Below are positions 1,213 through 21,978 of a DNA stretch of 39,629 nt, piece after piece. A program made the translations under genes and the position numbers. The notes under the pieces were generated by a model, which was not told the origin of the DNA, did no database searches, and was given only the letters and a program-made list of their open reading frames with translations. Location of the stretch: the IMG/VR virus record IMGVR_UViG_3300042881_004334, positions 1-39,629 of that record. One strand, 5' to 3'. The stretch comes from a virus. The first letter of the stretch is position 1; the number at the start of each line of letters is the position of its first letter.

Positions 1213-1236
1213 TTTGTTGAATGTTTTAATTTGCAA

Positions 1237-1266
1237 CAAAAGTAAACAAAGAAGCCAGAAAGTCAA
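1237..1266 (-). promoter_or_regulatory. Bacteroidota-type promoter for the 69-aa gene
   Basis: On the minus strand TTG (1264-1266), 19 nt, then TACTTTTG (1237-1244), followed by TTGCAA. It starts a transcript about 20 nt upstream of ATG 1212. The extended TTTGTTGCA sequence recurs at other promoters in this genome. Confidence 0.75.
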
Positions 1267-1285
1267 ACTTTTTTGCAACAAATAT

Positions 1286-4980: not shown

Positions 4981-5051
4981 TACTTCCTTGGCCGTCTTGG
5001 CTTCTTGGTTCCGGGCTTACCGCAGCTTGAGCAGTATTTTTTAGTTTTCAT
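4980..5051 (-). CDS. Tiny Cys-pair, Lys/Arg-rich peptide, 23 aa
   Basis: The frame reads MKTKKYCSSCGKPGTKKPRR and ends PRK. It has one CxxC and a strongly basic tail. It is supported by its tight fit: it lies between the lipoprotein gene and the 92-aa membrane gene, with its TAA overlapping the next ATG (TAATG). It may be a small nucleic-acid-binding or zinc-knuckle-like peptide, or simply a translational coupler. It is too short for homology-based judgement. Confidence 0.45.
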   Translation of the reverse strand: MKTKKYCSSCGKPGTKKPRRPRK

Positions 5052-5064
5052 AAATCAAAGGTAG

Positions 5065-5280
5065 TTAATCCTCCATCTTAAAAACAACCTGATTGATCTT
5101 GTACTTTCCACATTCGTCCTGAATATAGATGGTAGGCTTCCCTTGTCCGGCATAAAGGGCATATTCACAGGCAAAGGAGTTTTTCTTTGTGATGCCGGTT
5201 ACACGGTATTCGACAAAGTCAGTTTTCTGGCAGGAAGCAATAGAAGCCAAAAGAATTAAGGTGGTGAGTAGTTTTTTCAT
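5065..5280 (-). CDS. Small lipoprotein, 71 aa
   Basis: The N-terminus MKKLLTTLILLASIASCQKT is a clear signal peptide with lipobox (IASC, lipidated Cys 17). The mature part is about 54 residues with two further Cys and beta-rich character. The product should sit in the host outer or inner membrane. Small phage lipoproteins of this kind can block superinfecting phage at the receptor, as known for other phages (for example T5 Llp), but there is no sequence evidence for that role here. It is expressed within the minus-strand unit between a virion-like gene and the chaperone genes. Confidence 0.75.
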   Translation of the reverse strand: MKKLLTTLILLASIASCQKTDFVEYRVTGITKKNSFACEYALYAGQGKPTIYIQDECGKYKINQVVFKMED

Positions 5281-5293
5281 TGTTCTGTTTTAT

Positions 5294-5692
5294 TTAAGAC
5301 CCATACCCCGCAGGAACTACATCCGTAAAGGCGTTGATAAAAGGTGTTTCTGTCTGCGTAAAATTGCCAACGCTGAACTGAATCGAATCGGTAACAGTGC
5401 CGTCTTTTGCGGTGAATTGCAGGAATTGATTTGAGTCCGGATTTTGGAAATGGATGGTATAAGGACCACCAAATGTATTTAGAAACCCTTCTGGAAATGA
5501 AATTGAAGTCAAGTCAATGTTCACCCAGTTACCGTCTTCAACACTTAATTCCTCTCTTACAACATATCCAGCACCACCGACAATAAAAACATCAACAACC
5601 GGCTCCGCATAATCAGGCGGCAAATAAACAATCAGGTCGTCTGCGCAATTCGGCAAAGAAGCCTGGACAATGTATGGTGGTAAACAGCTCAT
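5294..5692 (-). CDS. Probable virion-associated protein, 132 aa
   Basis: The start is taken as ATG 5690-5692 (MSCLPPYIVQASLPNCADDL) because a promoter sits at 5707-5738, inside the longer open frame. The protein is beta-rich with many Pro, Gly and Asp, contains no membrane segment, and looks like a small decoration or tail domain. The MSCL start echoes that of the 343-aa virion protein at 28294-29325. It follows the terminase large gene and precedes the small lipoprotein. No family recognised. Confidence 0.65.
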   Translation of the reverse strand: MSCLPPYIVQASLPNCADDLIVYLPPDYAEPVVDVFIVGGAGYVVREELSVEDGNWVNIDLTSISFPEGFLNTFGGPYTIHFQNPDSNQFLQFTAKDGTVTDSIQFSVGNFTQTETPFINAFTDVVPAGYGS

Positions 5693-5706
5693 GGTTCTGA
5701 TTTTTG

Positions 5707-5738
5707 CAAATGTATAATCTTTTGCAACAATATTACAA
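5707..5738 (-). promoter_or_regulatory. Bacteroidota-type promoter
   Basis: On the minus strand TTG (5736-5738), 21 nt, then TACATTTG (5707-5714), 14 nt before ATG 5692. It overlaps the end of the terminase large gene. Confidence 0.6.
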
Positions 5739-7028
5739 ATCAATCATGGAAGAAATTTCGTTGAAGTTGGCCCAAAGGAAATAACGCCATTCGTCAAAGC
5801 TGTGCCCAAGGTTCGGGTTTTTGTTCTTCCAAGGATCCAGACTGCCATTTCGATCCACAACTGCCAGCTTTGAATCTTCAATAAGCAAGTCGTTTTCTTC
5901 GGCAATTTGGACCAAACAATTTTGAAGCACCAGATTTGTAACAGCCCTTGATGCAATATGCGAAGGGTTGGCCGGAGGAACCTGAATGGCAAAGTCATTG
6001 ACCCGAAGTCGTTTCTTGATGAATTGGTATGCAGTTATGTTGTCCTGGCTAAATGCGCTCCGGTTCCCTCCTGAAGCATCCCCATTGATTATGAACTCAA
6101 AGCCTTTGAAGTCTTCCAAGATCGTATCGCATAACGCACCCAGGTCACCAATTCGATAAGTCCTGATCCGGTTTATTGTGGCGTAATATTTGGCCCCCGG
6201 TCCATTTTTCAAAAACTGCTGTACCCCGCAGGTATTGGTTACGTTAAAGTCAAAGGACAGGTAAAGAGGTAGTTCTTTGACCGCTTTAATCTTTGCCTGT
6301 TTTACGTGAATCTCAGGATTGAAACCATACGCAAACCTATAATCCATATCCTCAAGTCCCCAGTCCCCCTCAGCCCAAACCTTGTATCTGCGTTCTCCTT
6401 CTTTGCCCTTTGATTTGATTCTTAGGAGCCTATTATGGAACTCCTCCCGATCAATGGCATAGTTCTGATAAAAGGTGGACTTGTAAAAAACATGGTTTGC
6501 AAGGTCTTTCTTCCTTTGATATTCCGAAAACAGCCAGTGGTTCTGGCTTTCCGGGTTCCATGATAAAATCATTGAAACCGGCGTTCCAATTTCGCCCCGG
6601 ATAGTTGTTGAAATGAAATCATAATCAGCTTCCTCAAACTGATTGGCTTCTTCCATCCATGCAATATTCGCACCTTCAACTGCCTTTGCCTTTTCGGGCT
6701 TATCCATACCAAGACCCCGGAACCAGTTTTTTGTGTGCTTGTTTTGGATAAAGAAGTGGTCTTTCTTGATTATGAAGTCATTCGGGAAATACTTGTAAAT
6801 CAGATCGGTCAGGAGCTTAAATGTGCTTCCTTCAATGTCGCCATAAACCTTTCGGGAGTGAATTACATTGAATTGATACGGCTTAAAGCTATGGTAAATT
6901 AGCTTTCGGGCAATGTTGTGAGATTTTGCTGATGCCCTGGTTCCAAAATGCCCCTCAACTGTGTAAAGTGGTTCGATGAAAGGCCAATACCACTTCAGCC
7001 AAAAGTTCCGTTGAAAGTTGAAGTTCAT
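5733..7028 (-). CDS. terL: Terminase large subunit
   Basis: A 431-aa packaging motor of the PBSX/Terminase_3-like type. The ATPase shows a Walker A-like element near residues 28-37 (GTRASAKS), a Walker B-like stretch near 118-128 (ANIAWMEEANQF) and a following 'SWNPES' coupling motif. The C-terminal RNase H-like nuclease has LSFDFNV (first acidic residue) and IINGDASGG (second). Length is normal for the family. It pumps DNA into procapsids through the portal and makes the packaging cut. It follows the small subunit gene but has its own promoter (7075-7105). It is unusually far from portal and head genes in this genome. Confidence 0.95.
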   Translation of the reverse strand: MNFNFQRNFWLKWYWPFIEPLYTVEGHFGTRASAKSHNIARKLIYHSFKPYQFNVIHSRKVYGDIEGSTFKLLTDLIYKYFPNDFIIKKDHFFIQNKHTKNWFRGLGMDKPEKAKAVEGANIAWMEEANQFEEADYDFISTTIRGEIGTPVSMILSWNPESQNHWLFSEYQRKKDLANHVFYKSTFYQNYAIDREEFHNRLLRIKSKGKEGERRYKVWAEGDWGLEDMDYRFAYGFNPEIHVKQAKIKAVKELPLYLSFDFNVTNTCGVQQFLKNGPGAKYYATINRIRTYRIGDLGALCDTILEDFKGFEFIINGDASGGNRSAFSQDNITAYQFIKKRLRVNDFAIQVPPANPSHIASRAVTNLVLQNCLVQIAEENDLLIEDSKLAVVDRNGSLDPWKNKNPNLGHSFDEWRYFLWANFNEISSMIDL

Positions 7029-7074
7029 TCACTTTTTATCTGTTATGCTAATTTGGCCCGGATAAAAGTTAGCA

Positions 7075-7105
7075 CAAATGTATTATTCCCCTGGTGGAGG
7101 TTCAA
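7075..7105 (-). promoter_or_regulatory. Bacteroidota-type promoter for the terminase large gene
   Basis: On the minus strand TTG (7103-7105), 20 nt, then TACATTTG (7075-7082). It overlaps the last codons of the small subunit gene and lies about 46 nt before ATG 7028. Confidence 0.65.
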
Positions 7106-7499
7106 TTCCGGAAATGGTGACGGTAAGTTGTTGGGGCGTGGTTTCGATTTCGTGGCGATCCTTCCATTCGTCTTTAAAGCGGTTTTTCATGTTGAAAATC
7201 CAAACCGTTGAATTTAAAGAGGTTTTGGTCTGCTGAATATTGCCGTCTTCGTCCCGGACCATTGTTTCCTTGTTGATGATATTTTCAATCCCCAATCTTT
7301 CCCAAAAAAGCCTTGCTCTTTCAATGCCTATTTTTTTGGAGTCAAGAAATTGAGGGTTTGCTTCCTGCCAATCGTAAATGGTCTGCTTCGAAACGCCAAC
7401 TAATCCGGCAAAAGATTCAAACGAGAATCCTTGCGCCATGTGTTCGATAAGCAGTTGGCAATGACTTTCTTCATACTTTGTGGGCCGTCCTGCTGGCAT
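7083..7499 (-). CDS. terS: Terminase small subunit
   Basis: A 138-aa protein starting MPAGRPTKYEESHCQLLIEH with an N-terminal helix-turn-helix (about 20-60, 'SFESFAGLVGVSKQTIYDWQ'), a helical oligomerisation middle and a short acidic or Pro-rich end (ISGIEPPPGE) likely to contact the large subunit. This is the classic architecture of DNA-packaging small subunits that recognise the phage DNA. It lies directly upstream of the large subunit and has its own promoter at 7551-7577. Confidence 0.9.
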   Translation of the reverse strand: MPAGRPTKYEESHCQLLIEHMAQGFSFESFAGLVGVSKQTIYDWQEANPQFLDSKKIGIERARLFWERLGIENIINKETMVRDEDGNIQQTKTSLNSTVWIFNMKNRFKDEWKDRHEIETTPQQLTVTISGIEPPPGE

Positions 7500-7550
7500 A
7501 GTTCTCTGGGTTAAGTGCCTGAATAGATTTCATATTCGTTTTTTCAAATT

Positions 7551-7577
7551 CAAAGGTAGGAAGAAAATTGCTTGCAA
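7551..7577 (-). promoter_or_regulatory. Promoter for the terminase small subunit, nested in a terminator U-run
   Basis: On the minus strand TACCTTTG (7551-7558) is preceded by TTG (7575-7577) at 16 nt, slightly shorter than usual. The TTG is the end of the preceding terminator's T-run. The 50-nt leader holds a possible 20-codon frame (MKSIQALNPENY), which I do not call as a gene. Confidence 0.5.
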
Positions 7578-7606
7578 AAAAAAAAGCCCCTTATTCGGAG
7601 GCTTTC
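7576..7606 (-). terminator. Intrinsic terminator
   Basis: On the minus strand AAAGCCTC pairs with GGGGCTTT (one G.U) around a loop that contains the stop codon of the 53-aa gene, followed by a run of T up to 7576. It closes the short unit 8066-7591. Confidence 0.8.
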
Positions 7607-7752
7607 AATTCTTTCAAATAATTCCGAATCATAATTGTAACCCGGTTCTTGTGTCCGATTGGGATTCGAAAAGCAACGGTTTCGGTTTTGGGACCGGTTT
7701 TTCTTCCGGCCCCTGGCTTGCGCTTCCCGTTTGTTGGGATTCCTTTAGGCAT
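7591..7752 (-). CDS. Small basic, ribbon-helix-helix-like DNA-binding protein, 53 aa
   Basis: The frame reads MPKGIPTNGKRKPGAGRKTG and continues with a beta-strand-like 'TETVAFRIP' and two helices ending LKELKASE. The order (basic arm, short strand, two helices) resembles Arc/MetJ-type ribbon-helix-helix proteins, which act as dimeric repressors; this is a pattern-level inference. It lies downstream of the 94-aa gene (7782-8066), separated by a UUCG hairpin, and its stop codon lies in the loop of its own terminator. It could regulate the divergent lysis and minus-strand promoters nearby. Confidence 0.65.
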   Translation of the reverse strand: MPKGIPTNGKRKPGAGRKTGPKTETVAFRIPIGHKNRVTIMIRNYLKELKASE

Positions 7753-7760
7753 AAAGTTAA

Positions 7761-7774
7761 GGGGCCGAAGCCCC
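7761..7774 (-). terminator. UUCG hairpin between two small genes
   Basis: On the minus strand GGGGC, TTCG, GCCCC forms a very stable hairpin, followed by TTAACTTT rather than a clean U-run. It may be a weak terminator or an mRNA stability or processing element between the 94-aa and 53-aa genes. Confidence 0.5.
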
Positions 7775-7781
7775 GGTTTTA

Positions 7782-8066
7782 TTATAGACTTGTATAAAGT
7801 CCTGTTGTTTTTTCAAATATTGATTTCAACATATCAGAATAGGCTCCTTCCACTTCTTTGATTGTTTTTACATCAAGTCCTCTGAATTTGCAGAACTTCA
7901 CATCGTAAGTATCCATTGAGTTAAGAGTTACATACATGATATTTGCAATTTTAGAACCTTTGAATTTTGCTACTAAAGTGTTTCCGTCTGAATAACAAGT
8001 AGCTCCGGTCATTACGATGAATTTGTTACCACCTAGTTGCTGAAGAATTTGAGATGCGATTGTCAT
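7782..8066 (-). CDS. Conserved-looking phage protein, 94 aa
   Basis: The start is ATG 8064-8066 (MTIASQILQQLGGNKFIVMT), 27 nt after the promoter 8093-8122; the longer frame upstream is only the shadow of the endolysin gene. The features 'LGGNKFIVMTGA', 'NIMYVTLNSMDTYDVKF' and an ending 'EKTTGLYTSL' match a small-protein pattern I recall from many phages and mobile elements, of unknown function. It is divergent from the lysis genes, followed by a UUCG hairpin and then the 53-aa putative DNA-binding protein. Confidence 0.8.
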   Translation of the reverse strand: MTIASQILQQLGGNKFIVMTGATCYSDGNTLVAKFKGSKIANIMYVTLNSMDTYDVKFCKFRGLDVKTIKEVEGAYSDMLKSIFEKTTGLYTSL

Positions 8067-8092
8067 TTTGTTTTTTGTTTTGTTTGATGCAA

Positions 8093-8122
8093 CAAAGGTA
8101 ACACCACTTTTTATTTCTGCAA
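8093..8122 (-). promoter_or_regulatory. Bacteroidota-type promoter
   Basis: On the minus strand TTG (8120-8122), 19 nt, then TACCTTTG (8093-8100) and TTGCA. It drives the 94-aa gene and lies in the divergent region with the plus-strand endolysin gene, for which I see no comparably good promoter. Confidence 0.75.
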
Positions 8123-8181
8123 ACTTTTTTAAGAAAAAAGGCAAAAATTTTTGAAATATTTTTTTTGGCTTTCTTTGGGGC

Positions 8182-8541
8182 ATGGAATTAAAGCATTTCA
8201 AACTGTCAGAATTTGACAGCCCTGATTTACCAGGATCAGGAAAAAACATGAATCCGGACTTTCTGAAAAGACTTGATGAGGCCCGTGAAATTGCAGGAGT
8301 GCCGTTTAATATCAACTCAGGCTTTCGTACTTCTGCCCATAATGCCAAAGTAAAAGGGAAACCTAATTCGTCCCATTTGCGGGGATATGCGGCTGATATA
8401 GCAACAAAAACGCCCTCCATTAAGTTTAAGGTTCTGGATAGTCTTTTAAAAGTAGGTTTTGACAGGATTGGTGTTTATTCAACCTTCATCCATGTTGATT
8501 GTGATCCACAGTTTAATGAACAACGCTGTGTAATATGGTAA
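8182..8541 (+). CDS. Endolysin, peptidase M15 family
   Basis: A 119-aa zinc peptidase of the M15A / D-Ala-D-Ala carboxypeptidase-like type that would cut peptidoglycan cross-links at lysis. Visible motifs are SGFRTSAHN (residues about 46-54), SSHLRGYAADI with the zinc His and Asp (about 63-73), and FIHVDCDP with the catalytic/zinc His near 102-109. There is no signal peptide, so it needs a holin. Length is typical for the single-domain form. It is first in a four-gene lysis cassette and overlaps the next gene by 7 nt. Confidence 0.93.
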   Translation: MELKHFKLSEFDSPDLPGSGKNMNPDFLKRLDEAREIAGVPFNINSGFRTSAHNAKVKGKPNSSHLRGYAADIATKTPSIKFKVLDSLLKVGFDRIGVYSTFIHVDCDPQFNEQRCVIW

Positions 8542-8870
8542 CGATTAAAGAATTTATTCAGGTTGCATTGCACCACATTTCTAATGCCCCTGGCTACTAC
8601 TACAACCATTTCTTTTGTCCTGTAAAACGGGAATCCATTATGCTCGGCTTTAGCGGTCTGGCAATATCATTCAGTTACGGGCTGCACAAGCTATCTGAAT
8701 ACATTGCCGAAATCAACCTTATATGGTCCTTTGTGGCCAAATTGCTTTCAGGACTGATCCTGGTAATGAACTTCATTATGGTCTTTATGGCACTTGCCAA
8801 AAGAGTCCGGGACTGGAAAAAGAATGAGGAACAAGAAGGTAAGGATGAATTCAAAAAACGTAACCGATGA
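8535..8870 (+). CDS. Holin-like membrane protein, 111 aa
   Basis: It starts MVTIKEFIQVALHHISNAPG and has two hydrophobic segments, about residues 36-55 (LGFSGLAISFSYGL) and 65-88 (SFVAKLLSGLILVMNFIMVF), and a very basic/acidic charged C-terminus (KKNEEQEGKDEFKKRNR). A small two-segment membrane protein directly after the endolysin is the expected holin. It overlaps both neighbours by a few bases (ATGA with the next). No family recognised. Confidence 0.7.
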   Translation: MVTIKEFIQVALHHISNAPGYYYNHFFCPVKRESIMLGFSGLAISFSYGLHKLSEYIAEINLIWSFVAKLLSGLILVMNFIMVFMALAKRVRDWKKNEEQEGKDEFKKRNR

Positions 8871-9151
8871 AAAAACTGTTTTGCCTTTTGCTTTTTGCCC
8901 TGGCAGGTTGCGCTAAGGAGTCCGATGTTGAACGAGTAAATTTAAAGATTGCAGAACTTCAAAAACAGGACAGCATTTTCAAGACTCAGCTTGCAATCGA
9001 ACGCCAGGAACGTCACGAAATGGATTCAGCCATGGGGTATTACATTGCCTTTCATGATAGTATACTTGAAAAGTCCTTGTCTAAAATTGAAAAGTCAAAA
9101 CGTCGGGGTGCATTTTGGGGATCCTTTGGAAGGGCTTTGATTGGGAAATGA
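8867..9151 (+). CDS. Lipoprotein with coiled coil, spanin-like, 94 aa
   Basis: The signal MKKLFCLLLFALAGCAKESD has a clean lipobox (ALAGC). The mature part is a charged helix (about 22-80) and ends with a basic 'SKRRGAFWGSFGRALIGK' segment that could be amphipathic or membrane-associated. In a lysis cassette of a Gram-negative phage this suggests an outer-membrane spanin or a unimolecular-spanin-like protein. Assignment is by context and topology, not by sequence family. The gene overlaps its neighbours by ATGA. Confidence 0.6.
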   Translation: MKKLFCLLLFALAGCAKESDVERVNLKIAELQKQDSIFKTQLAIERQERHEMDSAMGYYIAFHDSILEKSLSKIEKSKRRGAFWGSFGRALIGK

Positions 9152-9375
9152 CAGATCAAAGGGGAAGTTTTCAGAAACGAATGCAGGTACTTGCCTACAT
9201 CGCTTCTACGCTTACCCTTTGGGGCGTAATCCCTGCCCTTGGGTTTGTCAATAAGCAATTAGACCTGCATATATCCAATGAAGTAATGGTCTTAGTTGTT
9301 GGTGGACTTCTTACAACCTGGCAGGATTTGACCAAAAAGATTTTCCGAATCCTTGTTAATGGGAAGGAAGGGTAA
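9148..9375 (+). CDS. Second holin-like membrane protein, 75 aa
   Basis: The start is taken as ATG 9148-9150 (MTDQRGSFQKRMQVLAYIAS), which overlaps the previous stop (ATGA). The protein has two hydrophobic segments (about 12-33 and 44-58) and ends KIFRILVNGKEG. It may be an antiholin or a partner holin, or the inner-membrane spanin partner. It is the last gene of the lysis cassette, and its end meets the terminator shared with the opposing tmRNA gene. Confidence 0.65.
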   Translation: MTDQRGSFQKRMQVLAYIASTLTLWGVIPALGFVNKQLDLHISNEVMVLVVGGLLTTWQDLTKKIFRILVNGKEG

Positions 9376-9408
9376 TAAAAAAAGCCCCTGATAAATTACC
9401 AGAGGCTT
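9376..9408 (-). terminator. Terminator of the tmRNA gene (facing the lysis cassette)
   Basis: On the minus strand AAGCCTCTG pairs with CAGGGGCTT (9 bp, one U.G) around GTAATTTAT, followed by a T-run (9377-9383 region). It sits directly at the end of the plus-strand lysis cassette and may work weakly in both directions; the U-run favours the minus strand. Confidence 0.85.
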
Positions 9409-9412
9409 CCGA

Positions 9413-9463
9413 CTATGCGGCCAGCTTCCTGCCAGCGGCGAAGTCTACATTGATTTGTGTGCC
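9413..9463 (-). other. tmRNA proteolysis-tag reading frame
   Basis: The minus-strand frame GGC ... GCA TAG encodes GTQINVDFAAGRKLAA. The end LAA-stop matches the degron recognised by ClpXP and ClpAP. I chose GGC as the resume codon because ATAACC precedes it, comparable with the U(-5)A(-4) found before resume codons, and because Bacteroidota tags that I recall begin with Gly. The frame is open further upstream, so the tag could be longer. At 16 residues it is longer than the usual 8-12. Confidence 0.65.
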
Positions 9464-9522
9464 GGTTATGGCTTGTGAAGTCTCCCTCGGTCTCTTTCTC
9501 GCTGTCAAAGCCGGTCGGCCCC

Positions 9523-9635
9523 TGTTGAGAAACCCGTATTTCTACGGGTCGGCCCATGAGAGCTACTCATGGGGCTGTTCAAGGTTTTGCCGTTCCTATC
9601 GGAGTTCAAAACGGCCACACGGCGAAGTGTGTTAG
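9523..9635 (-). other. Hairpin-rich spacer joining the two tmRNA halves
   Basis: This 113-nt segment joins the acceptor 3' end to the 5' half and would be excised in a two-piece tmRNA. It contains CACAC/GTGTG (9631-9616), GCCGTT/AACGGC (9615-9589), a perfect CCCATGAG/CTCATGGG hairpin (9573-9553) and ACCCGTA-GAAA-TACGGGT with a GNRA loop (9549-9532). That is more structure than a simple processing spacer needs. Confidence 0.6.
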
Positions 9636-9700
9636 TGGAGCCGGAGGGATTCGAACCCTCGTGCAGACAAGTGACTACTTTGGTACAAGCGTCTTCGCTG

Positions 9701-9730
9701 CAAAAATAAAAAAAACCGCTCAAAATTCAA
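9701..9730 (-). promoter_or_regulatory. Promoter of the tmRNA gene, nested in the upstream terminator
   Basis: On the minus strand TTG (9728-9730), exactly 19 nt, then TATTTTTG (9701-9708). The TTG lies in the loop of the preceding intrinsic terminator, and the spacer is its U-run. The expected start, about 7 nt after the -7 box, is just upstream of the acceptor half of the tmRNA. Confidence 0.75.
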
Positions 9731-9740
9731 GCGGCCTTTC
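9712..9740 (-). terminator. Terminator of the minus-strand early operon
   Basis: On the minus strand AAAGGCCGCT pairs with AGCGGTTTTT around TGAATTTTG (core CCGCT/AGCGG) and eight T follow. It closes the long early operon whose last gene stops at 9760. Confidence 0.85.
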
Positions 9741-9759
9741 CAGTCATTTAACCAAATTC

Positions 9760-10152
9760 TCACTTTTCAAGGTCTTCTTCCACCATCTTACAATTTCCCA
9801 TCATCCGCCAAAGCAAGGTAAATACTTCTTCGGCCTTTGCCTGAACTTCTTCCAAGGTTGATCCATATAAATGCTCCACATCTGAGAATCCAGAATCAGC
9901 CTTTGGGAAAGATGGCACCGTGCATGAAAATCTGCCAATGTCATCAATAGGGCGTTTGAAGTTTTGTTCAATCTTGCAGATTTTGACATGATGGACTTTG
10001 CCATAAACATTTTTTAGCCATTGCTTATTTTCAGCCAATCCCTTTTCAATGTCCACAATCAAATGTCCATAAACGGCCCATCTGCCACTTTTGTCCGGTG
10101 TCATCTGTCCTTTCGACACGTAGTGGAATCTCCAGATTATTTGTGGTTTCAT
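9760..10152 (-). CDS. Hypothetical protein, 130 aa
   Basis: I do not recognise it. It begins MKPQIIWRFHYVSKGQMTPD, looks like a compact alpha/beta soluble protein with an N-terminal beta strand pair and a C-terminal helix ('TLEEVQAKAEEVFTLLWRMM'), and has no signal or membrane segment. It is the last gene of the early minus-strand operon, overlapping the stop of its upstream neighbour by 4 nt, and an intrinsic terminator follows. Confidence 0.7.
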   Translation of the reverse strand: MKPQIIWRFHYVSKGQMTPDKSGRWAVYGHLIVDIEKGLAENKQWLKNVYGKVHHVKICKIEQNFKRPIDDIGRFSCTVPSFPKADSGFSDVEHLYGSTLEEVQAKAEEVFTLLWRMMGNCKMVEEDLEK

Positions 10153-10487
10153 TTCTTCTCAACTTTTACAATTTCATCTTCCACAATACTCCACCCCGCA
10201 TTTACAAAATACTTGTCATTAAACTTGTATGCCCGAAGCTCCCCTTCGTTTTTTGTCTCAATCGTGTACTGATTATCCGGATAGAACCGGGCCAAAAGCT
10301 TATAGTCCATTTCTGTTCGTGCAGTTCCGGCCTTGAATAGCCTTTTGTAGATCATCGTCTTCTCCTCATCCAGAAACGAATCGTATCGGTCAATCACTTT
10401 TCGGACAAATCCGATGCAAACACCCGTTGACCCGCCGAAGCAGGAATCCAAAAGGCGCAGGGTTTCGAAAAAGTCAATTTGGATCAT
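10149..10487 (-). CDS. Hypothetical protein, 112 aa
   Basis: The frame is open to 10577, but ATG 10485-10487 (MIQIDFFETLRLLDSCFGGS) is preferred because it forms an ATGA overlap with the preceding gene's stop. The protein is soluble and mixed alpha/beta with no recognised family; it ends 'AGWSIVEDEIVKVEKK'. It lies in a run of small genes with 4-nt overlaps, typical of a phage early operon. Confidence 0.65.
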   Translation of the reverse strand: MIQIDFFETLRLLDSCFGGSTGVCIGFVRKVIDRYDSFLDEEKTMIYKRLFKAGTARTEMDYKLLARFYPDNQYTIETKNEGELRAYKFNDKYFVNAGWSIVEDEIVKVEKK

Positions 10488-10684
10488 TTTTTGTATTCTT
10501 GAAACTCCTTCCAATATTTCCGGGACATCACAACCCATTCCTGGTCCAACTTCATCTCCACCACTCCAGATGCCCAATGCTTCCGGGCCGGTATGCCGTT
10601 GCAGTGGCCGTAGGTGTAGCGGTTGTGGTGATAGATGACATAAGCCACAAACAGAAGGAAGCCGGTTATGAGGATTTCAAGCAT
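10484..10684 (-). CDS. Small membrane-anchored protein, 66 aa
   Basis: The N-terminus MLEILITGFLLFVAYVIYHH is one transmembrane segment; the remainder is a hydrophilic tail ending KYWKEFQEYKK. There is no lipobox. It starts 10 nt after the stop of the metalloprotease lipoprotein gene and overlaps the next gene by ATGA. Function unknown; a membrane role beside the exported protease is possible. Confidence 0.65.
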   Translation of the reverse strand: MLEILITGFLLFVAYVIYHHNRYTYGHCNGIPARKHWASGVVEMKLDQEWVVMSRKYWKEFQEYKK

Positions 10685-10694
10685 TGTATTTCAA

Positions 10695-11957
10695 CTAATC
10701 CAAAACCCGAACCTCCCTTACCCGGACGTGAGAATCCAAGGCAAAGAAATCAATCTTAATGGTATTCACCCCAGCCCGATTAACCGGAATGTTCATCTCC
10801 AAAGCACCAGGGACCGCAACACCAAGCTGCGTGCCGTTGACAGAAACGATTGCCTGTCTGATCGGGCTGCCCCATTTTGAGCCAGACAAGTACCCCGTCC
10901 ATATCCGGATACAATCCACGCTGGCATTGTTATAGGTCAAGGTCAGGCTTGTTTGTGGGGCATTTACAACCCATCTGGAAGCGTTGGTGTTGTCAATACC
11001 ATCCAATGCCTTATCAAAGCCCGGATGGCTTCCTGTAACGCTTGTGTGAGCTACCAAGGTGCTGCAAGTAGTAACGGGTGGTAATGGTGGTTGTGTCGGG
11101 GTGTAAGTCTGAAGGCTTGAATAAAAAACAGCCCGATGTAGCTTAGCCAATACCGATGGATGCAGGGTGTAGGTTGCCTGTCCCCAAATATGAGCATAAC
11201 TATTCCAGCCTCCCGATTGGCGTATGGTGGTCCGGTTGCACCTGATCGGAACGGGGGAACAAGTTACTTCCCCAGCTGCTGCGGAATCCAGTCTTCCAAG
11301 TGGCCTGCCGTCCTTGGTGTACCACTCGCAACAGTTATGGGAATGTGAGATTCCCAAGTTATGCAGGATTTCGTGACCAATGGCGTACTCGTCATTCCCC
11401 GGCTTATCAAATCCTCCTGCAATCGCTTTGCCGAAGCCAGAAATGGCGTATGGTGCAGTTGTCAGGCTTCCTCTGGATATGAAGGCCGAACCACCTAATC
11501 CAGAACGTCCTGAGATGCGAAGCATAAAATTATTTCCTACCCTTGGAACCGTTGATGAAAACTGAAACAGCATATTATTTCCGTTTGTCTGACGGCTTAC
11601 AATGTCGTGGCGGGTTAGGATCTTGATTTGGCTGATTGTGAACCTTAGTCCCGTCTGGCGTTCCATGTTCCATGCAATCCGGGCGAATCTGGCTCTGACC
11701 GTGTCTTCGGTAAAAGGCTTCCAATGTGCGTTGTAAATTGAATCCACTTCGATGTAAAACGGAACAATGCGATAGCTTCGGTAAGTTGGTTCCCAGAAAT
11801 CCGGTTCACTTGCAGCCCTGAGCATTGACGGCTCTGCTGGCGCAGGAACTTCGTCGGAGGTCACAACCAATTCGTCGGTTTGTGGGCCTGTTAGGTTGTG
11901 GGTGCAGCTTCCTAATCCCATCAGGAAAACTGCTAAAATGAAAAGTGTGTTTTTCAT
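10695..11957 (-). CDS. Lipoprotein zinc metalloprotease (metzincin) with C-terminal beta-sandwich
   Basis: A 420-aa exported protein. The signal peptide MKNTLFILAVFLMGLGSCTH has a lipobox (GLGSC, lipidated Cys 18). The catalytic domain (about 55-300) carries HEILHNLGISHSH near residues 192-204, the HExxHxxGxxH zinc signature of metzincins (reprolysin/ADAM-like), with several Cys after it that may form disulfides. A Pro/Thr linker (TPTQPPLPP) leads to a C-terminal domain of about 130 residues, which resembles an F5/8 type C (discoidin-like) binding domain. The expected place is the host outer membrane surface or periplasm. A protease lipoprotein is unusual cargo in a 39-kb phage; it may cleave surface proteins to exclude other phages, aid release, or benefit the host. 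The Met-turn is not obvious. Confidence 0.8.
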   Translation of the reverse strand: MKNTLFILAVFLMGLGSCTHNLTGPQTDELVVTSDEVPAPAEPSMLRAASEPDFWEPTYRSYRIVPFYIEVDSIYNAHWKPFTEDTVRARFARIAWNMERQTGLRFTISQIKILTRHDIVSRQTNGNNMLFQFSSTVPRVGNNFMLRISGRSGLGGSAFISRGSLTTAPYAISGFGKAIAGGFDKPGNDEYAIGHEILHNLGISHSHNCCEWYTKDGRPLGRLDSAAAGEVTCSPVPIRCNRTTIRQSGGWNSYAHIWGQATYTLHPSVLAKLHRAVFYSSLQTYTPTQPPLPPVTTCSTLVAHTSVTGSHPGFDKALDGIDNTNASRWVVNAPQTSLTLTYNNASVDCIRIWTGYLSGSKWGSPIRQAIVSVNGTQLGVAVPGALEMNIPVNRAGVNTIKIDFFALDSHVRVREVRVLD

Positions 11958-11966: not shown

Positions 11967-12300
11967 TTAAAGCTTTTTGTTTTGTTGCTTTTCAATCTTC
12001 TGCTCCAATTCATTGATATTCTCCGCATCATGCTCCCAATCCCCTTCTTTGGCCATCTTCAGCATTTCATTTGCATCTTCAATCATTCCGGCCTTAAAGG
12101 CTATCCAGCCCGCTGACCTAAATAAAATCAGGGTGTGGCGTTGCGTTGTGGCAGATTGTAGCGGCTTCCTTTTCGGATTGAAAGGCAATTTTTCGGGCAA
12201 CCTTTGCTTTTTCCAAATCATTTTTCCCCTCATACACAAGTGCTTTGTATGAACAAGAAATGGCTACATCGTGCAGCTTTTGAGCAGATTTAAATTTCAT
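11967..12300 (-). CDS. TPR-like helical protein interrupted by a frameshift
   Basis: Translation from ATG 12298-12300 gives MKFKSAQKLHDVAISCSYKA..., which stops at TAG 12118. The next frame continues the same pattern as 'LFRSAGWIAFKAGMIEDANE' down to the stop at 11967. Dropping one T from TTTT near 12123-12126 gives a continuous protein of about 110 aa through 'HPDLFRSAGW'. The helical pairs resemble TPR repeats. The break may be a sequencing or assembly error, a real mutation, or recoding; the run is only four T, so it is not an obvious homopolymer error. The start overlaps the upstream stop (ATGA). Confidence 0.55.
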
Positions 12301-12312
12301 GGCTCTGGATTG
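12294..12312. repeat. 19-bp direct repeat at a gene junction, copy 1
   Basis: Positions 12294-12312 are identical to 12608-12626 and each spans the end of one small gene (encoding NPEP-stop) and the ATG of the next. The two copies are 314 bp apart. This may mark duplication of a gene-end cassette or a recombination junction. Confidence 0.8.
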
Positions 12313-12614
12313 AGTTTTAATAGACTCAAAATTTCTAATCCTCTTTTGTGGCATATTTCAATTTGCTCCCACCCATGCCCATCATAATTTTTTTCATGGA
12401 GTAATATGTCTGCCGCTTCGATTAGCTTGGCCAACACAGAAGCTGTGTTCCATGCTTTTCCTTCTTCAGTAGGCAGGGGTGGTTCTTGCCCACTTTGAAG
12501 CCCAATGATTTTCCCGGCAGCAAAAATCGACTTCAGCTCGGCTGGTGTGCCTTTTTTAAGGATTTCTTTTTCAACCTCTAAGGCTGCTTCAAGGTCTTGT
12601 TTTGTGTATTTCAT
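12297..12614 (-). CDS. Hypothetical protein, 105 aa
   Basis: The start is taken as ATG 12612-12614 (MKYTKQDLEAALEVEKEILK), which overlaps the previous stop (ATGA); the longer frame upstream is shared repeat sequence. The protein is largely helical with a central Pro-rich turn (EPPLPTEEGKAWNTAS) and ends LKLNPEP, the same C-terminal four residues as its upstream neighbour. No family recognised. It belongs to a run of small early genes. Confidence 0.65.
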   Translation of the reverse strand: MKYTKQDLEAALEVEKEILKKGTPAELKSIFAAGKIIGLQSGQEPPLPTEEGKAWNTASVLAKLIEAADILLHEKNYDGHGWEQIEICHKRGLEILSLLKLNPEP

Positions 12615-12626
12615 GGCTCTGGATTG
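12608..12626. repeat. 19-bp direct repeat at a gene junction, copy 2
   Basis: Second copy of the 19-bp sequence at 12294-12312, again across a stop/start overlap. Confidence 0.8.
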
Positions 12627-13060
12627 GTTTTTGTAGAATATTTGCTCCAGTCCCATCCACTACCATCTTCATAAGCATCTGGCTTCAGCAACTTAGCAAG
12701 TCTTTTTTCGGCTTTTTCGTGTACCTTGGTATCTCGACAGCAAGAACAACCTTCAGAGATAATGTAGTCCGCAAATGCTTGTCGGATTTGCTCCACCTCC
12801 GACATCTTTTTATCCCCCGCCAAAAAATCGGCTGCGGAGATGCGGGGGCGGTCGTTGATTTCGCCCGCATCAGAGGTGTACATACACCAATCTTGAGCCT
12901 CTATATCAAAGGCTATATTGGGGTATTTTTCAAAGTCTCGGCCTACTGAAAAGGGGGAATAAACATTCTCATCCATCCCCACTAATTTCCCAGCCACCAT
13001 TTTCGCCTCTTCGGGCGTTTTTGGGACGATTACAAAGTCCCGGATGTTTTGTGTGTTCAT
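12611..13060 (-). CDS. Hypothetical protein, 149 aa
   Basis: It begins MNTQNIRDFVIVPKTPEEAK and is an alpha/beta soluble protein with a Cys cluster ('ISEGCSCCRDTK') in the middle and the C-terminal motif TKTNPEP. The N-terminal 'VIVPKTPEEAKMVAGKL' looks like a small alpha/beta domain. Function unknown. The stop overlaps the start of the next gene, and the surrounding genes are small, early-type open frames. Confidence 0.65.
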   Translation of the reverse strand: MNTQNIRDFVIVPKTPEEAKMVAGKLVGMDENVYSPFSVGRDFEKYPNIAFDIEAQDWCMYTSDAGEINDRPRISAADFLAGDKKMSEVEQIRQAFADYIISEGCSCCRDTKVHEKAEKRLAKLLKPDAYEDGSGWDWSKYSTKTNPEP

Positions 13061-13070
13061 GGTTTCAGCC

Positions 13071-13286
13071 CTAAGATAGTATCGTAAAAGTACAGAAGGA
13101 CTTTCGAACAGTTACCTCTTCCCCCTTTTCTACTTCATTATAAGCAAGCATAGCCTTTGCCTTACCTTTTATAATGATGCCCGATGCCCAGGTTTTATCT
13201 TGGTGAGTAAGTTTCATTCTAAACTTGCCTTTTCTTTGACTTGAAACGTCGTAGGTTTTGCCAATTTCTAAAATTTGATCTGACAT
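13071..13286 (-). CDS. Small beta-rich protein, 71 aa
   Basis: It begins MSDQILEIGKTYDVSSQRKG and looks like a compact beta-barrel protein (SH3- or OB-like alternation in 'FRMKLTHQDKTWASGIIIKG') ending in 'RKSFCTFTILS'. No known family. It is 10 nt upstream of the next gene and 9 nt after the previous stop. A nucleic-acid-binding role is possible but unproven. Confidence 0.65.
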   Translation of the reverse strand: MSDQILEIGKTYDVSSQRKGKFRMKLTHQDKTWASGIIIKGKAKAMLAYNEVEKGEEVTVRKSFCTFTILS

Positions 13287-13295
13287 TGTTTTGTT

Positions 13296-13451
13296 TTAAT
13301 TAGATTTTCTCCCTTTCAATTCCCTCTTCCTTTTGTTGATATAGTAGGTATTGACGGTCTCGCCAATGTCATCCTTTGCGATGCGTTTTACCTTGTATTC
13401 AACGGTTCCCGGACCAAGGATTATTGAATCAATGATGCCCTGGTTGTCCAA
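13296..13451 (-). CDS. Small protein with TTG start, 51 aa
   Basis: The frame begins at TTG 13449-13451, one base after the upstream gene's stop (TAA C TTG), and reads MDNQGIIDSIILGPGTVEYK with a basic C-terminal end (NKRKRELKGRKSN). There is no ATG in the frame. Coding character and the tight fit between 13453 and 13286 support it; otherwise 160 bp would be empty in a dense operon. Function unknown; perhaps a DNA-binding or structural peptide. Confidence 0.5.
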   Translation of the reverse strand: MDNQGIIDSIILGPGTVEYKVKRIAKDDIGETVNTYYINKRKRELKGRKSN

Positions 13452-13452
13452 G

Positions 13453-13782
13453 TTATTGATGTATTGCTTTTTTGAATGTAAGGTGGACCAGAAGGCAGTT
13501 GGGGTCTAATCTAAATGGACTTCCGGAAATGTAGGCATGGTAGTCATACCCGACCCTTTCAATCCGGTCAATCTTGTTCCGATTCAGATACTCCGAATCG
13601 GTAGTTTTGGAAATCATGGGATTTGCCCTAATCAATTCGGCAATAATCCGGCCTTCAAATTCGTCGGAATAATTAACAATCTGATGTATGCCTAAGATTT
13701 TATTGATTGTTGTGTTAATGAACACCACCTCTGAAGCATCAATCTGGTGGAAGGTCGTGGCGGAGGTTTGCAGGAAAATCAT
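13453..13782 (-). CDS. Hypothetical protein, 109 aa
   Basis: The start is ATG 13780-13782 (MIFLQTSATTFHQIDASEVV), overlapping the upstream stop as ATGA. The protein is mixed alpha/beta and contains 'DSEYLNRNKIDRIERVGYDY' before a hydrophobic end (VHLTFKKAIHQ). A -7 element TACTTTTG with the TTGCAA extension (13809-13816, minus) lies just upstream, within the previous gene, and may give it extra expression. No family recognised. Confidence 0.65.
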   Translation of the reverse strand: MIFLQTSATTFHQIDASEVVFINTTINKILGIHQIVNYSDEFEGRIIAELIRANPMISKTTDSEYLNRNKIDRIERVGYDYHAYISGSPFRLDPNCLLVHLTFKKAIHQ

Positions 13783-14630
13783 GATTTTATTTCGCTTTGT
13801 TCTTGCAACAAAAGTACAGCTATTTTCTGAATAATTTCGTTTTTGTTGCAAATTTTCAAAGAATCTTGAATGACTTTCAGTTTTGCCTTTTCTGCGAGCT
13901 TCTCAAAAGGCTTCGTTCCCTTGAATTTTTTGAAATCCAGTTTTCCGGTTTCAGTAAATTCCTGAATCATTTCTTTGACCAGGTTCCTTTCTTTAAAATC
14001 CGGGTATCCGGTGTAAATCCTGGCAGGATCCATGTCTTTGCAGAACTCAGCAAGAACTTCATTAAACACCTTGGTTTTGAATTCCGGCAAAGGATCAATA
14101 AACTTCCATTCAATCAAGCGGTCGTAATACCGATGCAGCCCGAACATTGACTTTTCAGGCTCAAACAACCATTCCCTGTAAAACGCCACGGCTTCTTCAT
14201 GCTTTTTGTTGGCGTAATACTCAACAACCTCTTTTGGCGGTGGTGGTGGACAGGCTTTGCTTAGATGCCCAAAGTCCATGCGGAATTTTTTATACCATCC
14301 GAAAATATTGGCTGCGCTGATTGTTGTGAGCTGGTCATCAAGTTTGATTTCTCCAAATGAGGCCATTTCCAAGGCTTTCAGGATGTCGTCGATAATCGCA
14401 TGGGGATAAACCTCCATGATTTTCTTTATTGCTGCTTCTGCGGTCTTCAGACATTCGCCCTGGTCCTTAAAGGTTAGCTTCATAACTGCATGGGCCGCAA
14501 TAATTCCTGCTGAAATTTGAGCCTCAACCATTTCTGAATCTTTTGCAAACTCATAACTGAGCCGACCAGGTTTTTCTTTTAAAAATGTAAGGGTTCCTCC
14601 AGAACCTAATAGCTTACGAGTTGCTTCCAT
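13779..14630 (-). CDS. Hypothetical replication-associated protein, 283 aa
   Basis: It is a soluble, mostly helical protein starting MEATRKLLGSGGTLTFLKEK, with a Pro run 'CPPPPPKEVVEYYANKKHEE' near the centre and a Lys-rich helical C-terminus. It overlaps the 3' end of the replication initiator gene by 17 nt. That position, directly after an initiator gene with an origin inside it, is where helicase loaders or primosome accessory proteins are commonly found (as with lambda O and P), but I see no AAA+ motifs. Call made from context only. Confidence 0.6.
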   Translation of the reverse strand: MEATRKLLGSGGTLTFLKEKPGRLSYEFAKDSEMVEAQISAGIIAAHAVMKLTFKDQGECLKTAEAAIKKIMEVYPHAIIDDILKALEMASFGEIKLDDQLTTISAANIFGWYKKFRMDFGHLSKACPPPPPKEVVEYYANKKHEEAVAFYREWLFEPEKSMFGLHRYYDRLIEWKFIDPLPEFKTKVFNEVLAEFCKDMDPARIYTGYPDFKERNLVKEMIQEFTETGKLDFKKFKGTKPFEKLAEKAKLKVIQDSLKICNKNEIIQKIAVLLLQEQSEIKS

Positions 14631-15381
14631 TGTTTGCGTGTTTCTTTTTTATCAATTCCAATACCCCTTTAAGGTTTCTTTCCTGCTCTGACATTTCAGT
14701 TCCGTCAGGATGGTATTCTTTTTTTGGTTCTGGCTTACCATTTGGTTTTTCCGGGAAAATACCCTTCCACCGATTTGCGATTGAATTGTCAATAATCTTT
14801 TCGGCTCTGTGGAAATCCCCGCCAGAATAGTCGATCAACTTTTTTACAAATTCATCCAGGGTTGCCTGGGTTTTGTAGGTTTCCCGATGTTCGGCTTTTT
14901 TGTAGTCAATCCATTTTTTTACCAAGGGTTCAAAAAGTCCGTAGGTGTCGGTTTTGATTTTTACCCTTTCCCCTGCACCCCTATCCCTAATTACAATTCC
15001 AGTTTCATTTACACTTTCATTTACACTTTCATTTACACCTTCAGAACGTAATACGTTCGTATTACTTTCGTTTCTATGTTTTTCCCATCTCTTATTCACT
15101 GATTCTTTGGCTTTTAAGCCTTTTTCTTTACGGATTAACATCTCTTTTTCAAGTCGTAAAGAATAACTCCCGGATTCGTCGTGCTGAAATTTTGAATACA
15201 CTGATGCCCCGTTCGTAATTGAATCGCATTGCGCTCGTAATACGTTCGTATCAATTCTCCCCCCATGTTGATGTTGAGCGCACAAAAGCCGAATGTATAG
15301 GCCAACCTGCTCATTTGACATAAACATGGTCCCTGTCAAAAAATCGGAACTGTAAAACAGGAAAGCTGGATCTTTAGCCAT
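14614..15381 (-). CDS. Replication initiation protein (DUF1376 / lambda O-like)
   Basis: A 255-aa protein starting MAKDPAFLFYSSDFLTGTMF, with an N-terminal winged-helix-like domain of the DUF1376 type ('MSNEQVGLYIRLLCAQHQHG'), a low-complexity linker with VNESVNESVNE, and a C-terminal helical domain (about 145-255) with 'KRWKGIFPEK'-like basic residues. The N-terminal domain is typical of phage O-like initiators that bind their own origin. The middle of the gene carries tandem 12-bp repeats and a palindrome (15003-15065), the classic place for iterons. The 3' end overlaps the helicase-loader-like gene. Confidence 0.8.
   Translation of the reverse strand: MAKDPAFLFYSSDFLTGTMFMSNEQVGLYIRLLCAQHQHGGRIDTNVLRAQCDSITNGASVYSKFQHDESGSYSLRLEKEMLIRKEKGLKAKESVNKRWEKHRNESNTNVLRSEGVNESVNESVNETGIVIRDRGAGERVKIKTDTYGLFEPLVKKWIDYKKAEHRETYKTQATLDEFVKKLIDYSGGDFHRAEKIIDNSIANRWKGIFPEKPNGKPEPKKEYHPDGTEMSEQERNLKGVLELIKKKHANNGSNS
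15003..15065. other. Candidate replication origin: tandem iterons and palindrome inside the initiator gene
   Basis: Three perfect tandem copies of tttcatttacac (15003-15038) are followed by an 18-bp imperfect palindrome GTAATACG-TT-CGTATTAC (15048-15065). The palindrome's 16-bp left part, CGTAATACGTTCGTAT, recurs at 15236-15251. AT-rich repeats inside an O-like gene match the arrangement of lambdoid origins. The repeats encode the VNESVNES linker and TNVLR, so part of the repetition could be protein-driven, but the identical codon choice favours a DNA-level function. Confidence 0.6.
15236..15251. repeat. Second copy of the origin-associated 16-mer
   Basis: CGTAATACGTTCGTAT, identical to 15047-15062. 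A partial third occurrence (GTTCGTAAT) lies near 15211. All are in the replication initiator gene. Confidence 0.7.
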
Positions 15382-15385
15382 AAAT

Positions 15386-15583
15386 TTAAAACACTAAATG
15401 TTCAAACCCCGGCTCTTCATTATACCATGAAACATAAAGTTTGCATAGCTTATAAAAATTTTCACTTTCTAAATCAACTATTGAAACAGAATCGCCATTT
15501 GTTGTTTTTAGCAAAACTGAATCGCTAAAAATTGTAACTACTAATTTCCAATCATCTGCTCGATCTTCTAATAAAAGATTCAT
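15386..15583 (-). CDS. Hypothetical protein, 65 aa
   Basis: The start is ATG 15581-15583 (MNLLLEDRADDWKLVVTIFS), coupled to the small frame upstream (ATGA). It is a small acidic beta/alpha protein ending YNEEPGFEHLVF. No family recognised. It stops just before the replication initiator gene, so it heads the replication part of the operon. Confidence 0.6.
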   Translation of the reverse strand: MNLLLEDRADDWKLVVTIFSDSVLLKTTNGDSVSIVDLESENFYKLCKLYVSWYNEEPGFEHLVF

Positions 15584-15675
15584 AAAAACAAAAACCCCAT
15601 CCGGCTTTCCTGTTTGGAACCAGCGAGGTAACACGCTGAACAGTACCGACCGAATGGGGCTTTAAAAATCTTCAT
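15580..15675 (-). CDS. Possible small CxxC peptide, 31 aa
   Basis: The frame reads MKIFKAPFGRYCSACYLAGS and ends RMGFLFL; it starts immediately after the 13-codon frame 15678-15719 (MSKDPDWNPGKIR) and its stop overlaps the next ATG. The whole stretch lies inside a large inverted repeat: CCCCATCCGG 15595-15604 with CCGAATGGGG 15650-15659, and inner stems CTGTT/AACAG and CAGCG/CGCTG. It may therefore be a structured leader with coupled peptides rather than a real gene. Confidence 0.35.
   Translation of the reverse strand: MKIFKAPFGRYCSACYLAGSKQESRMGFLFL
15592..15660 (-). other. Nested three-stem inverted repeat with U-rich tail
   Basis: As minus-strand RNA, CCCCATTCGG pairs with CCGGATGGGG (10 bp, one U.G), enclosing CTGTT/AACAG and CAGCG/CGCTG, and TTTTTGTTTTT follows. 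It looks like an attenuator or transcription terminator placed just before the 65-aa gene. Its overlap with a possible coding frame leaves the role open. Confidence 0.5.
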
Positions 15676-15677
15676 TT

Positions 15678-15719
15678 TTACCTTATTTTACCGGGGTTCC
15701 AATCCGGGTCTTTCGACAT
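15678..15719 (-). CDS. Possible 13-codon leader peptide
   Basis: The frame MSKDPDWNPGKIR starts at ATG 15717-15719, close to a TATATTTG -7-like box, and stops 2 nt before the next ATG. It is too short to judge; it is listed because it is coupled to the structured region downstream, as leader peptides of attenuators are. Confidence 0.25.
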   Translation of the reverse strand: MSKDPDWNPGKIR

Positions 15720-15737
15720 TGCAAATATACAGTTTTT

Positions 15738-16262
15738 TTAAATCACTCCGTAGTGAATCAGAAAAACACCCGCCAAAAAAAGCAATCCACAGGCCAACAA
15801 AAGACCAGTTTTCAAGGCAGAATTGGCCCCTTTTAGCTTCCCGATTTGTTCATTTAAGTAGTCAATCCGATCAGTCATTTGGTTTTCTTTGTCCAGGGCT
15901 TCGGTACGAATCCGGCCAATCTTGATGTCCTGTTCGGTCTTGATTTCCCGCAAAATTTTGATGTCCTGCGCCAAAGAATCATTTTGCTGTGTTGCCAAAG
16001 TCAGACGTTTCATCACATCGTTTCTTTCTCTTTCAAAGTAATCTTTGCCCTTTCGCAAGCTTTCAGTTTTGCGCTCCAGATCTTCAACTTTCTGAAGTTC
16101 CTGGATCAATCCGACCGGAAGATTGACTTCAACAAAGTTTGATGAATCTTTGTGGGCTTTAATTTCGGCTTTCCAGGTATCAGAATTAACCTGACCAATG
16201 ATGTGAATACTTCCCCGACCTACTCCGAGGCGAAGACCAATTTCGATTTTCGGTGTTTTCAT
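15738..16262 (-). CDS. Coiled-coil protein with C-terminal membrane anchor, 174 aa
   Basis: It starts MKTPKIEIGLRLGVGRGSIH; residues about 1-50 are a small beta domain, about 55-145 a long charged coiled coil, and about 150-170 a hydrophobic tail anchor (TGLLLACGLLFLAGVFLIHY). There is no signal peptide. The topology, a cytoplasmic coiled coil tethered to the inner membrane, suggests a membrane-associated scaffold, perhaps for replication or host membrane interference. It has its own promoter at 16280-16311 and leads the early operon. No family recognised. Confidence 0.7.
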   Translation of the reverse strand: MKTPKIEIGLRLGVGRGSIHIIGQVNSDTWKAEIKAHKDSSNFVEVNLPVGLIQELQKVEDLERKTESLRKGKDYFERERNDVMKRLTLATQQNDSLAQDIKILREIKTEQDIKIGRIRTEALDKENQMTDRIDYLNEQIGKLKGANSALKTGLLLACGLLFLAGVFLIHYGVI

Positions 16263-16267
16263 TTTGT

Positions 16268-16732
16268 TTATTTTTGCAACAAAGGTAAAACAGGATTTCT
16301 TTTCTGTGCAACAAAATTTTGAACTTCATAAATAAATTCATCCAAAGACCAAGTTACCAAAGTTTTCCATCCACGTTTTTCAAGTTCCCGAAGCCACCAT
16401 TTTTGTTCTTCGGTTAATGTATTGCGGCCTACTTTTAGTTCAATGGCAAAGCCAACATAACCGCCATAAGGCTCCTGAATTAGGCAGTCTGGAACGCCAC
16501 GCTTTACGCCCTTTCTTTTTAGGTGTATTCCCTCCAGGCTTATCTTTTGCCCCGATTTCAGTTCGTAGGATTTTGTCTTACGCTCATTTGCCGGATGAAA
16601 CCAAAGCAGACCAAGCGTATCTAAAAACCTGGCTGCTGAAATCTGAAAGTCATCTTCGCTGCCACGGTATGGGGCAAACTGTTTTTTAGTCGGTAAATCC
16701 AAAAAAGAAAAATTTATTCGATTTTGTTGCAA
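16268..16732 (-). CDS. VRR-NUC domain nuclease
   Basis: A protein of up to 154 aa of the PD-(D/E)XK superfamily, VRR-NUC branch. It shows the core 'KRGVPDCLI' (catalytic Asp), 'GFAIELKVGRNTLTEEQKWW' (ExK) and 'WKTLVTWSLDEF'. Such phage nucleases act on branched or structured DNA in recombination or packaging. There is no ATG in the frame; the start may be TTG 16730-16732 or TTG 16700-16702. The 5' end overlaps the divergent plus-strand promoter at 16727-16755. A partner of the RecT/exonuclease block is likely. Confidence 0.85.
   Translation of the reverse strand: MQQNRINFSFLDLPTKKQFAPYRGSEDDFQISAARFLDTLGLLWFHPANERKTKSYELKSGQKISLEGIHLKRKGVKRGVPDCLIQEPYGGYVGFAIELKVGRNTLTEEQKWWLRELEKRGWKTLVTWSLDEFIYEVQNFVAQKRNPVLPLLQK
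16280..16311 (-). promoter_or_regulatory. Bacteroidota-type promoter for the coiled-coil gene
   Basis: On the minus strand TTG (16309-16311), 21 nt, then TACCTTTG (16280-16287) with TTGCAA after it, 17 nt before ATG 16262. It lies within the end of the nuclease gene. Confidence 0.6.
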
Positions 16733-21945: not shown

Positions 21946-21949
21946 TTTG

Positions 21950-21978
21950 CAAAGGTATGCAACTATTTGAATATGCAA
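21950..21978 (-). promoter_or_regulatory. Promoter of the GT25 gene, near-leaderless
   Basis: On the minus strand TTG (21976-21978), 18 nt, then TACCTTTG (21950-21957), only 4 nt before ATG 21945. The expected transcription start is at or next to the start codon. Confidence 0.7.

Follow-up and report, generated by a model that had tools for sequence, protein, structure and literature searches.

A putative exported zinc protease with an M12B-type fold and asparagine at the Met-turn position in an uncultivated phage

The window analysed here is the whole 39,629-bp uncultivated IMG/VR virus record IMGVR_UViG_3300042881_004334. It contains a gene for a lipobox-bearing metalloprotease (Table 1), whose coordinates, strand, length and motifs were all given correctly by the original prediction, as judged from the ORF list and translation. 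The protease ORF is a real gene, present in five IMG/VR records with the window counted among them. It is located between replication and lysis genes: nuclease-like and primosomal-like genes, accompanied by small genes, precede it in the same presumed operon, whereas the endolysin-like gene and the terminase genes lie past a terminator-like hairpin. The phage early operon proposed for it is therefore observed as far as the replication-operon position goes, while early expression would follow from gene content. The small gene next to the protease, for a putative membrane protein, has 97% DNA identity in contigs L004 and L005, which is above the protease's own identity.

Table 1. Location of the protease gene, its parts and other annotated features of the window
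Feature	Position	Strand	Basis or remark
Exported M12B-fold zinc protease gene, putative (P0001)	10695-11957	-	420 aa; ORF and translation
Lipoprotein signal peptide MKNTLFILAVFLMGLGS followed by C, residues 1-18 (LGS, then C)	11904-11957	-	sequence
N-terminal spacer, variable, residues 19-57	11787-11903	-	alignment; without C-X-K-(D/E)2 surface-export signal
Catalytic domain, residues 58-288, adamalysin/ADAM fold	11094-11786	-	AlphaFold model, VIA-align, profile matches
Zinc motif H195-E196-x-x-H199-x-x-G202-x-x-H205 (HEILHNLGISH)	11343-11375	-	alignment A7
Met-turn equivalent G249-G-W-N252-S-Y-A255-H256	11190-11213 (Asn252 codon 11202-11204)	-	alignment
Pro/Thr linker TPTQPPLPPVTT, residues 286-297	11067-11102	-	sequence; apparent C-terminal domain exchange joint
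C-terminal domain, residues 298-420, beta-rich	10698-11066	-	model strands; perhaps F5/8C/galactose-binding-like
Co-directional upstream genes, same presumed operon	11967-16732	-	ORFs, PHROGs; small genes included
VRR-NUC/Holliday-resolvase-like gene	16268-16732	-	PHROGs
DnaD/primosomal-like gene	14614-15381	-	PHROGs
66-aa putative membrane protein, directly downstream of protease	10484-10684	-	ORF; adjoins protease in L004 and L005
Intrinsic-terminator-like hairpin, presumed operon end	9709-9741	-	within 73-bp segment 97-99% identical in L004 and L005
Candidate permuted (two-piece) tmRNA, tag GTQINVDFAAGRKLAA	9322-9728	-	ARAGORN
Endolysin-like gene, lysis cassette	8182-8541	+	past hairpin, as are terminase genes
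GT25 glycosyltransferase gene	21277-21978		window
GT2-like gene	23718-24401		window
FkbM methyltransferase gene	26205-26897		window
GtrB-like O-antigen-conversion gene	26894-27553		window

All isolated phages are only distantly related to this one; among the best 20 records listed, terminase identity is at most ~31%. Its host is probably a member of the Bacteroidota, judging from the nearest cellular relatives of the protease and from RecT, one of whose closest cellular matches is in Arachidicoccus (59%). The best RecT match among cellular sequences (63%) lies on L030, a Doudnabacteria MAG contig of 5.4 kb that is probably a misbinned phage contig. The GT25, GT2-like, FkbM and GtrB-like genes fit a phage that alters the cell surface, but may instead serve to modify the particle. 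The candidate tmRNA scores 40.1 bits (E 1e-6) against the Rfam model tmRNA_permuted (RF04321) and 34.8 bits against tmRNA (RF00023), neither reaching the gathering score of 47; it also occurs in the near-identical contig L003 and is absent from L004, L131 and the other relatives scanned.

Across the six reading frames of the window, the motif HExxHxxGxxH appears a single time, and 200 residue shuffles never produced it. In an alignment of 14 phage-contig sequences (A7), H195, E196, H199 and H205 are invariant and G202 is nearly so, and the window protein has the three His and the Glu of the zinc site in the strict definition of metzincins. The residue after the third His is Ser206, where the M12B signature, HExxHxxGxxHD, has Asp (PMC11266112) and bacterial relatives have Thr or Ser. 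Against Reprolysin_5 (PF13688) the window protein scores 22.2 bits (E 1.9e-4), below the curated cut-off of 27, whereas its phage relatives L138 (33.0 bits) and L134 (43.9 bits) exceed it; homology of the window protein is thus clear, although it falls outside formal membership.

The AlphaFold model built from the A7 alignment has a mean pLDDT of 66.5, with most stretches of the catalytic core at 70-92 and the surroundings of the Met-turn at 55-60. A model made with three near-identical sequences only (pLDDT 36.5) was left uninterpreted. In VIA-align, residues 58-288 superimpose on the catalytic domains of adamalysin, snake-venom P-I and ADAM proteases with Z scores of 16-17.7 (rmsd 2.7-3.8 over 180-204 residues), and the A7 profile retrieves adamalysins from the PDB sequences at E 4e-16. 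Thus, an M12B-type enzyme fold is well supported. The adamalysins are found by the family profile alone, as phmmer gave no match among PDB sequences. A viral structure library yielded weak or partial matches only, the best being a Tupanvirus ulilysin (TM-score 0.36 by query length). The window protein shares the fold and zinc ligands with M12B enzymes but lacks their Met-turn Met, the Asp after the third His and the disintegrin domain, and is 9-17% identical to them.

More similar are the reprolysin-like secreted metalloproteases of Bacteroidota (PF13688/PF13582/PF13583), found in Chitinophagaceae and others. They are ~25-31% identical to the window protein over the catalytic domain and have in common with it HExxHxxGxxH, a following conserved Cys-Trp and Asp, and a signal peptide. 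However, these proteins mostly span ~560-1,100 aa or more and have GT(I/V)MSYC, with MSYC kept in all 46 homologues read (45 by pattern plus L100), whereas the phage form is a 420-aa lipoprotein with NSYA. L100 had been taken for a homologue without Met, which proved to be a pattern artefact, its actual motif being GTIMSYCH.

The Met-turn methionine, located below the zinc, is held to be invariant in metzincins and belongs to their strict definition. Beyond residue 205, the catalytic domain of the window protein contains no Met, and the GGWNSYAH found there aligns in register with GGIMSYCH of the relative L133 (35% identical overall). Asn252 thus occupies the position of the Met-turn Met, and the protein is not a canonical metzincin. 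The claim that it is a metzincin, for which structure prediction had been proposed as a check, survives for the zinc ligands (the third His, H205, is kept in the sequence), the general base and the M12B fold, but fails at the Met-turn, where the residue is Asn and the model is in its low-pLDDT part.

The replacement is not confined to the window. In two proteins of phage contigs, L138 and L140, which share ~42% identity with the window protein, the motif reads GGINSYAH and GINSYGH, and the five Asn proteins form one clade in the tree (100/99), with L133 (Met) as sister and L107 (Met) next. L131 has lost the Met separately (SVLSYG) and groups with the Met-containing L134 and L025 (98/97). Gene decay as the cause of Met loss is ruled out by the codon evidence given below and by conservation of Asn in L138 and L140. 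A joint loss of the two Cys of DSC...MSYC as a disulphide pair was considered but is not claimed: these positions are A226 and A255 in the window protein, and L131 has Thr and Gly there, but in L138 and L140 the first Cys is retained and the second lost.

Comparison of the window with L004 (~90% DNA identity) gives 50 synonymous changes against a single amino-acid change in codons 51-285; in the C-terminal domain the corresponding figures are 28 and 12. When the window is compared with L004 or L005, Nei-Gojobori dN/dS is lowest in the catalytic part (0.04-0.06), rises to ~0.1 in the C-terminus and reaches 0.26-0.29 over the first 50 residues. Because this method overstates catalytic replacements (Nd 11.5 versus one real change, probably through two-step serine paths), the plain codon counts were given priority. 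The catalytic part is under strong purifying selection and is the most constrained of the three; this fits an enzyme, but constraint would be expected of a binder too.

A pseudo-protease or zinc-dependent binder, which would keep the fold and zinc site but bind an envelope protein and block it in the manner of the phage T5 lipoprotein Llp, is an unlikely alternative. The fixation of Met-to-Asn in one clade and the Met-to-Leu change in L131 would fit such a protein, as would the fate of mutants of Erwinia protease C (PrtC): in work cited in PMC1266349, the His, Ser and Asn forms could not be isolated, M226N being insufficiently stable, while Leu, Ala and Ile were tolerated with impaired kinetics. 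The same paper describes the Met-to-Leu and Met-to-Ser enzymes of MMP-2 as only slightly perturbed, which argues against the binder, as does the invariance of the three zinc His and the general-base Glu, since ADAM pseudopeptidases typically lose these and retain Met (PMC11266112). Natural metzincin-clan proteins without the Met-turn Met exist in group G1 of Trypanosoma cruzi GP63 (PMC11957388); these are eukaryotic M8 proteins with Leu, paralleled by L131, whereas the window protein is a phage protein of M12B fold with Asn. No natural Asn variant was found in the limited set of papers searched. Engineered Asn was not tolerated in one model enzyme (PMC1266349), yet Asn persists here over ~58% sequence divergence, and the Asn-turn clade and its Met-bearing sister L133 provide natural pairs for testing the near-invariance of the Met-turn Met.

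The window protein has the signal peptide and lipobox of a bacterial lipoprotein and would be lipidated. The lipobox is kept in L004 and L005, and relatives have LAGC (L133) or MSGC (L121 and L134). Surface export of Bacteroidota lipoproteins is signalled by C-X-K-(D/E)2 or a similar motif, directly after the lipobox Cys (PMC5080379). No signal of this type is present in the window protein (C-T-H-N-L-T-G-P-Q-T-D-E) or in L004 and L005 (C-T-R-K-L-I-T), so a periplasm-facing lipoprotein is as likely as a surface-exposed one. This consensus may not be that of the host; Chitinophagaceae SusD proteins mostly have C-x-K-x-(L/F)-(D/E/L). Thus, of the predicted outer-membrane lipoprotein, the exported-lipoprotein signal is present while surface exposure is doubtful. 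T5 Llp, an early phage lipoprotein, inactivates its receptor FhuA from the periplasmic face of the outer membrane (PMC9586334), so the missing surface signal is compatible with receptor inactivation. Llp would share with the window protein, as proposed below, early production, an outer-membrane location and receptor inactivation, but it is small and binds FhuA, whereas the window protein is a 420-aa putative protease, and the two sequences are unrelated as far as known.

The predicted F5/8C-like end proved suggestive only: the C-terminal domain is modelled as beta-rich, but PF00754 has no match in residues 296-420 of the window protein, reaches E 0.099 in L138 and gives a significant match with the remoter L110 protein alone. 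L133 combines a window-like N-terminal part with a C-terminal domain that L131 and L009 share at 82% identity, which indicates that C-terminal domains are exchanged near the linker.

Related proteases recur in phage genomes. In L133 the relative occupies the slot seen in the window, with replication genes on one side and lysis genes on the other, and in the broadly syntenic 42-kb genome G006 (L131) the 538-aa signal-peptide version with Met-to-Leu lies downstream of VRR-NUC and DnaB-like genes. Another broadly syntenic genome (G011, 42.5 kb) has a canonical 398-aa lipoprotein version within its structural operon, adjoining a homologue of window gene 34463-36595. The 72-kb contig L005 (G001) is otherwise unlike the window but has in common with it the protease gene, 90% identical in DNA, and three neighbouring genes. 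The GC content of the protease gene (49.8%, versus 42.2% across the window) suggests recent transfer. Slot recurrence, the sharing with G001 and the high GC suggest a recurrent, mobile phage accessory gene derived from the host. The Asn-turn relatives in L138 (9875-11098) and L140 (701-1966) have their genes upstream of others that probably encode capsid and terminase proteins, and are possibly virion proteins.

The gene has no relative among 50,697 phage records (queried with the window protein, L107, L133 and one bacterial homologue), in keeping with the stated rarity of exported metalloproteases in phages, at least cultured ones. No relative was found among PLSDB plasmids, no close relative in genome_contigs, and no match to the window protein in PHROGs, NCBIfam or PADLOC.

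The placement of these copies bears on whether the protease is instead packaged in or on the particle, clearing surface proteins at adsorption or entry. The G011 copy within a structural operon, the L138 and L140 copies near probable capsid and terminase genes, and the occurrence of one C-terminal domain in otherwise different proteins would all suit this role, and the lack of a convincing export signal in L138 and L140 keeps it possible for those two. The lipoboxes of the window, L133 and G011 versions would, however, direct the protein to a membrane, and the window copy lies among replication rather than structural genes, which makes a virion-associated protease quite unlikely.

A moron, that is, a fitness gene aiding the infected or lysogenic host in, for example, nutrition or against competitors or grazers, is very unlikely. 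In favour of it, the nearest cellular relatives are secreted Bacteroidota proteins and the GC difference suggests recent acquisition; but no integrase was found among the genes scanned, the T9SS tails present in some bacterial relatives are absent, and the way the gene has been kept repeatedly in a single slot of phage genomes suggests that phages need it. An attack on eukaryotic or competing neighbours, also envisaged in the original prediction, gained no supporting evidence.

The phage may well trim the surface of the infected cell with a protease of unusual active site. In the reading that we tentatively prefer, the protein is a phage-adapted, host-derived M12B endopeptidase, exported early, that cuts one or more envelope proteins of the infected cell and so blocks superinfection or aids progeny release. 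The protease would be expressed alongside the replication genes and exported by the host Sec/lipoprotein route, after which the lipid and flexible linker would tether it to the outer membrane; the C-terminal domain might or might not bind the target. Presumably active despite Asn252, it would then cleave at least one host envelope protein, the likeliest being the phage receptor or some other protein of the outer membrane, so that superinfection would be blocked and released progeny kept off debris.

This envelope-protease reading is supported by the fold and motif, purifying selection, the same-slot M12B-like proteins of L133 and G006, the G011 lipoprotein, the move of the gene into L005/G001, the possible surface-modifying genes and the T5 Llp precedent. 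It is weakened by loss of the Met-turn Met, in view of the instability of PrtC M226N, the missing surface-export signal, and the position of L138 and L140 beside virion genes without a clear export signal. It also counts against it that lipoprotein exclusion factors described so far, to our knowledge, bind and do not cut. Destruction of a receptor is still the best guess, given that the protein is designed like an early lipoprotein, that its gene occupies the lysis/replication slot and that the same phage carries glycosyltransferase and O-antigen-conversion-like genes. The literature searched contained no example of superinfection exclusion by receptor proteolysis; if the reading is true, receptors would be shaved off infected cells by proteolysis as a means of exclusion. 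The wider proposal that Bacteroidota phages have repeatedly turned host M12B proteases into exported anti-receptor enzymes, one clade being active with an undescribed Asn-turn, is possible but doubtful.

Larger metzincins occur on other contigs. The 106-kb viral contig L109 encodes two adjacent signal-peptide metzincins (309-7520, 2,403 aa; 7536-11552, 1,338 aa), with repeat-like regions after the catalytic domain. L111 and L112 (18.8 and 270 kb), listed as viral contigs and of putative phage origin, encode a metzincin of 601 aa whose C-terminal tail is T9SS-like.
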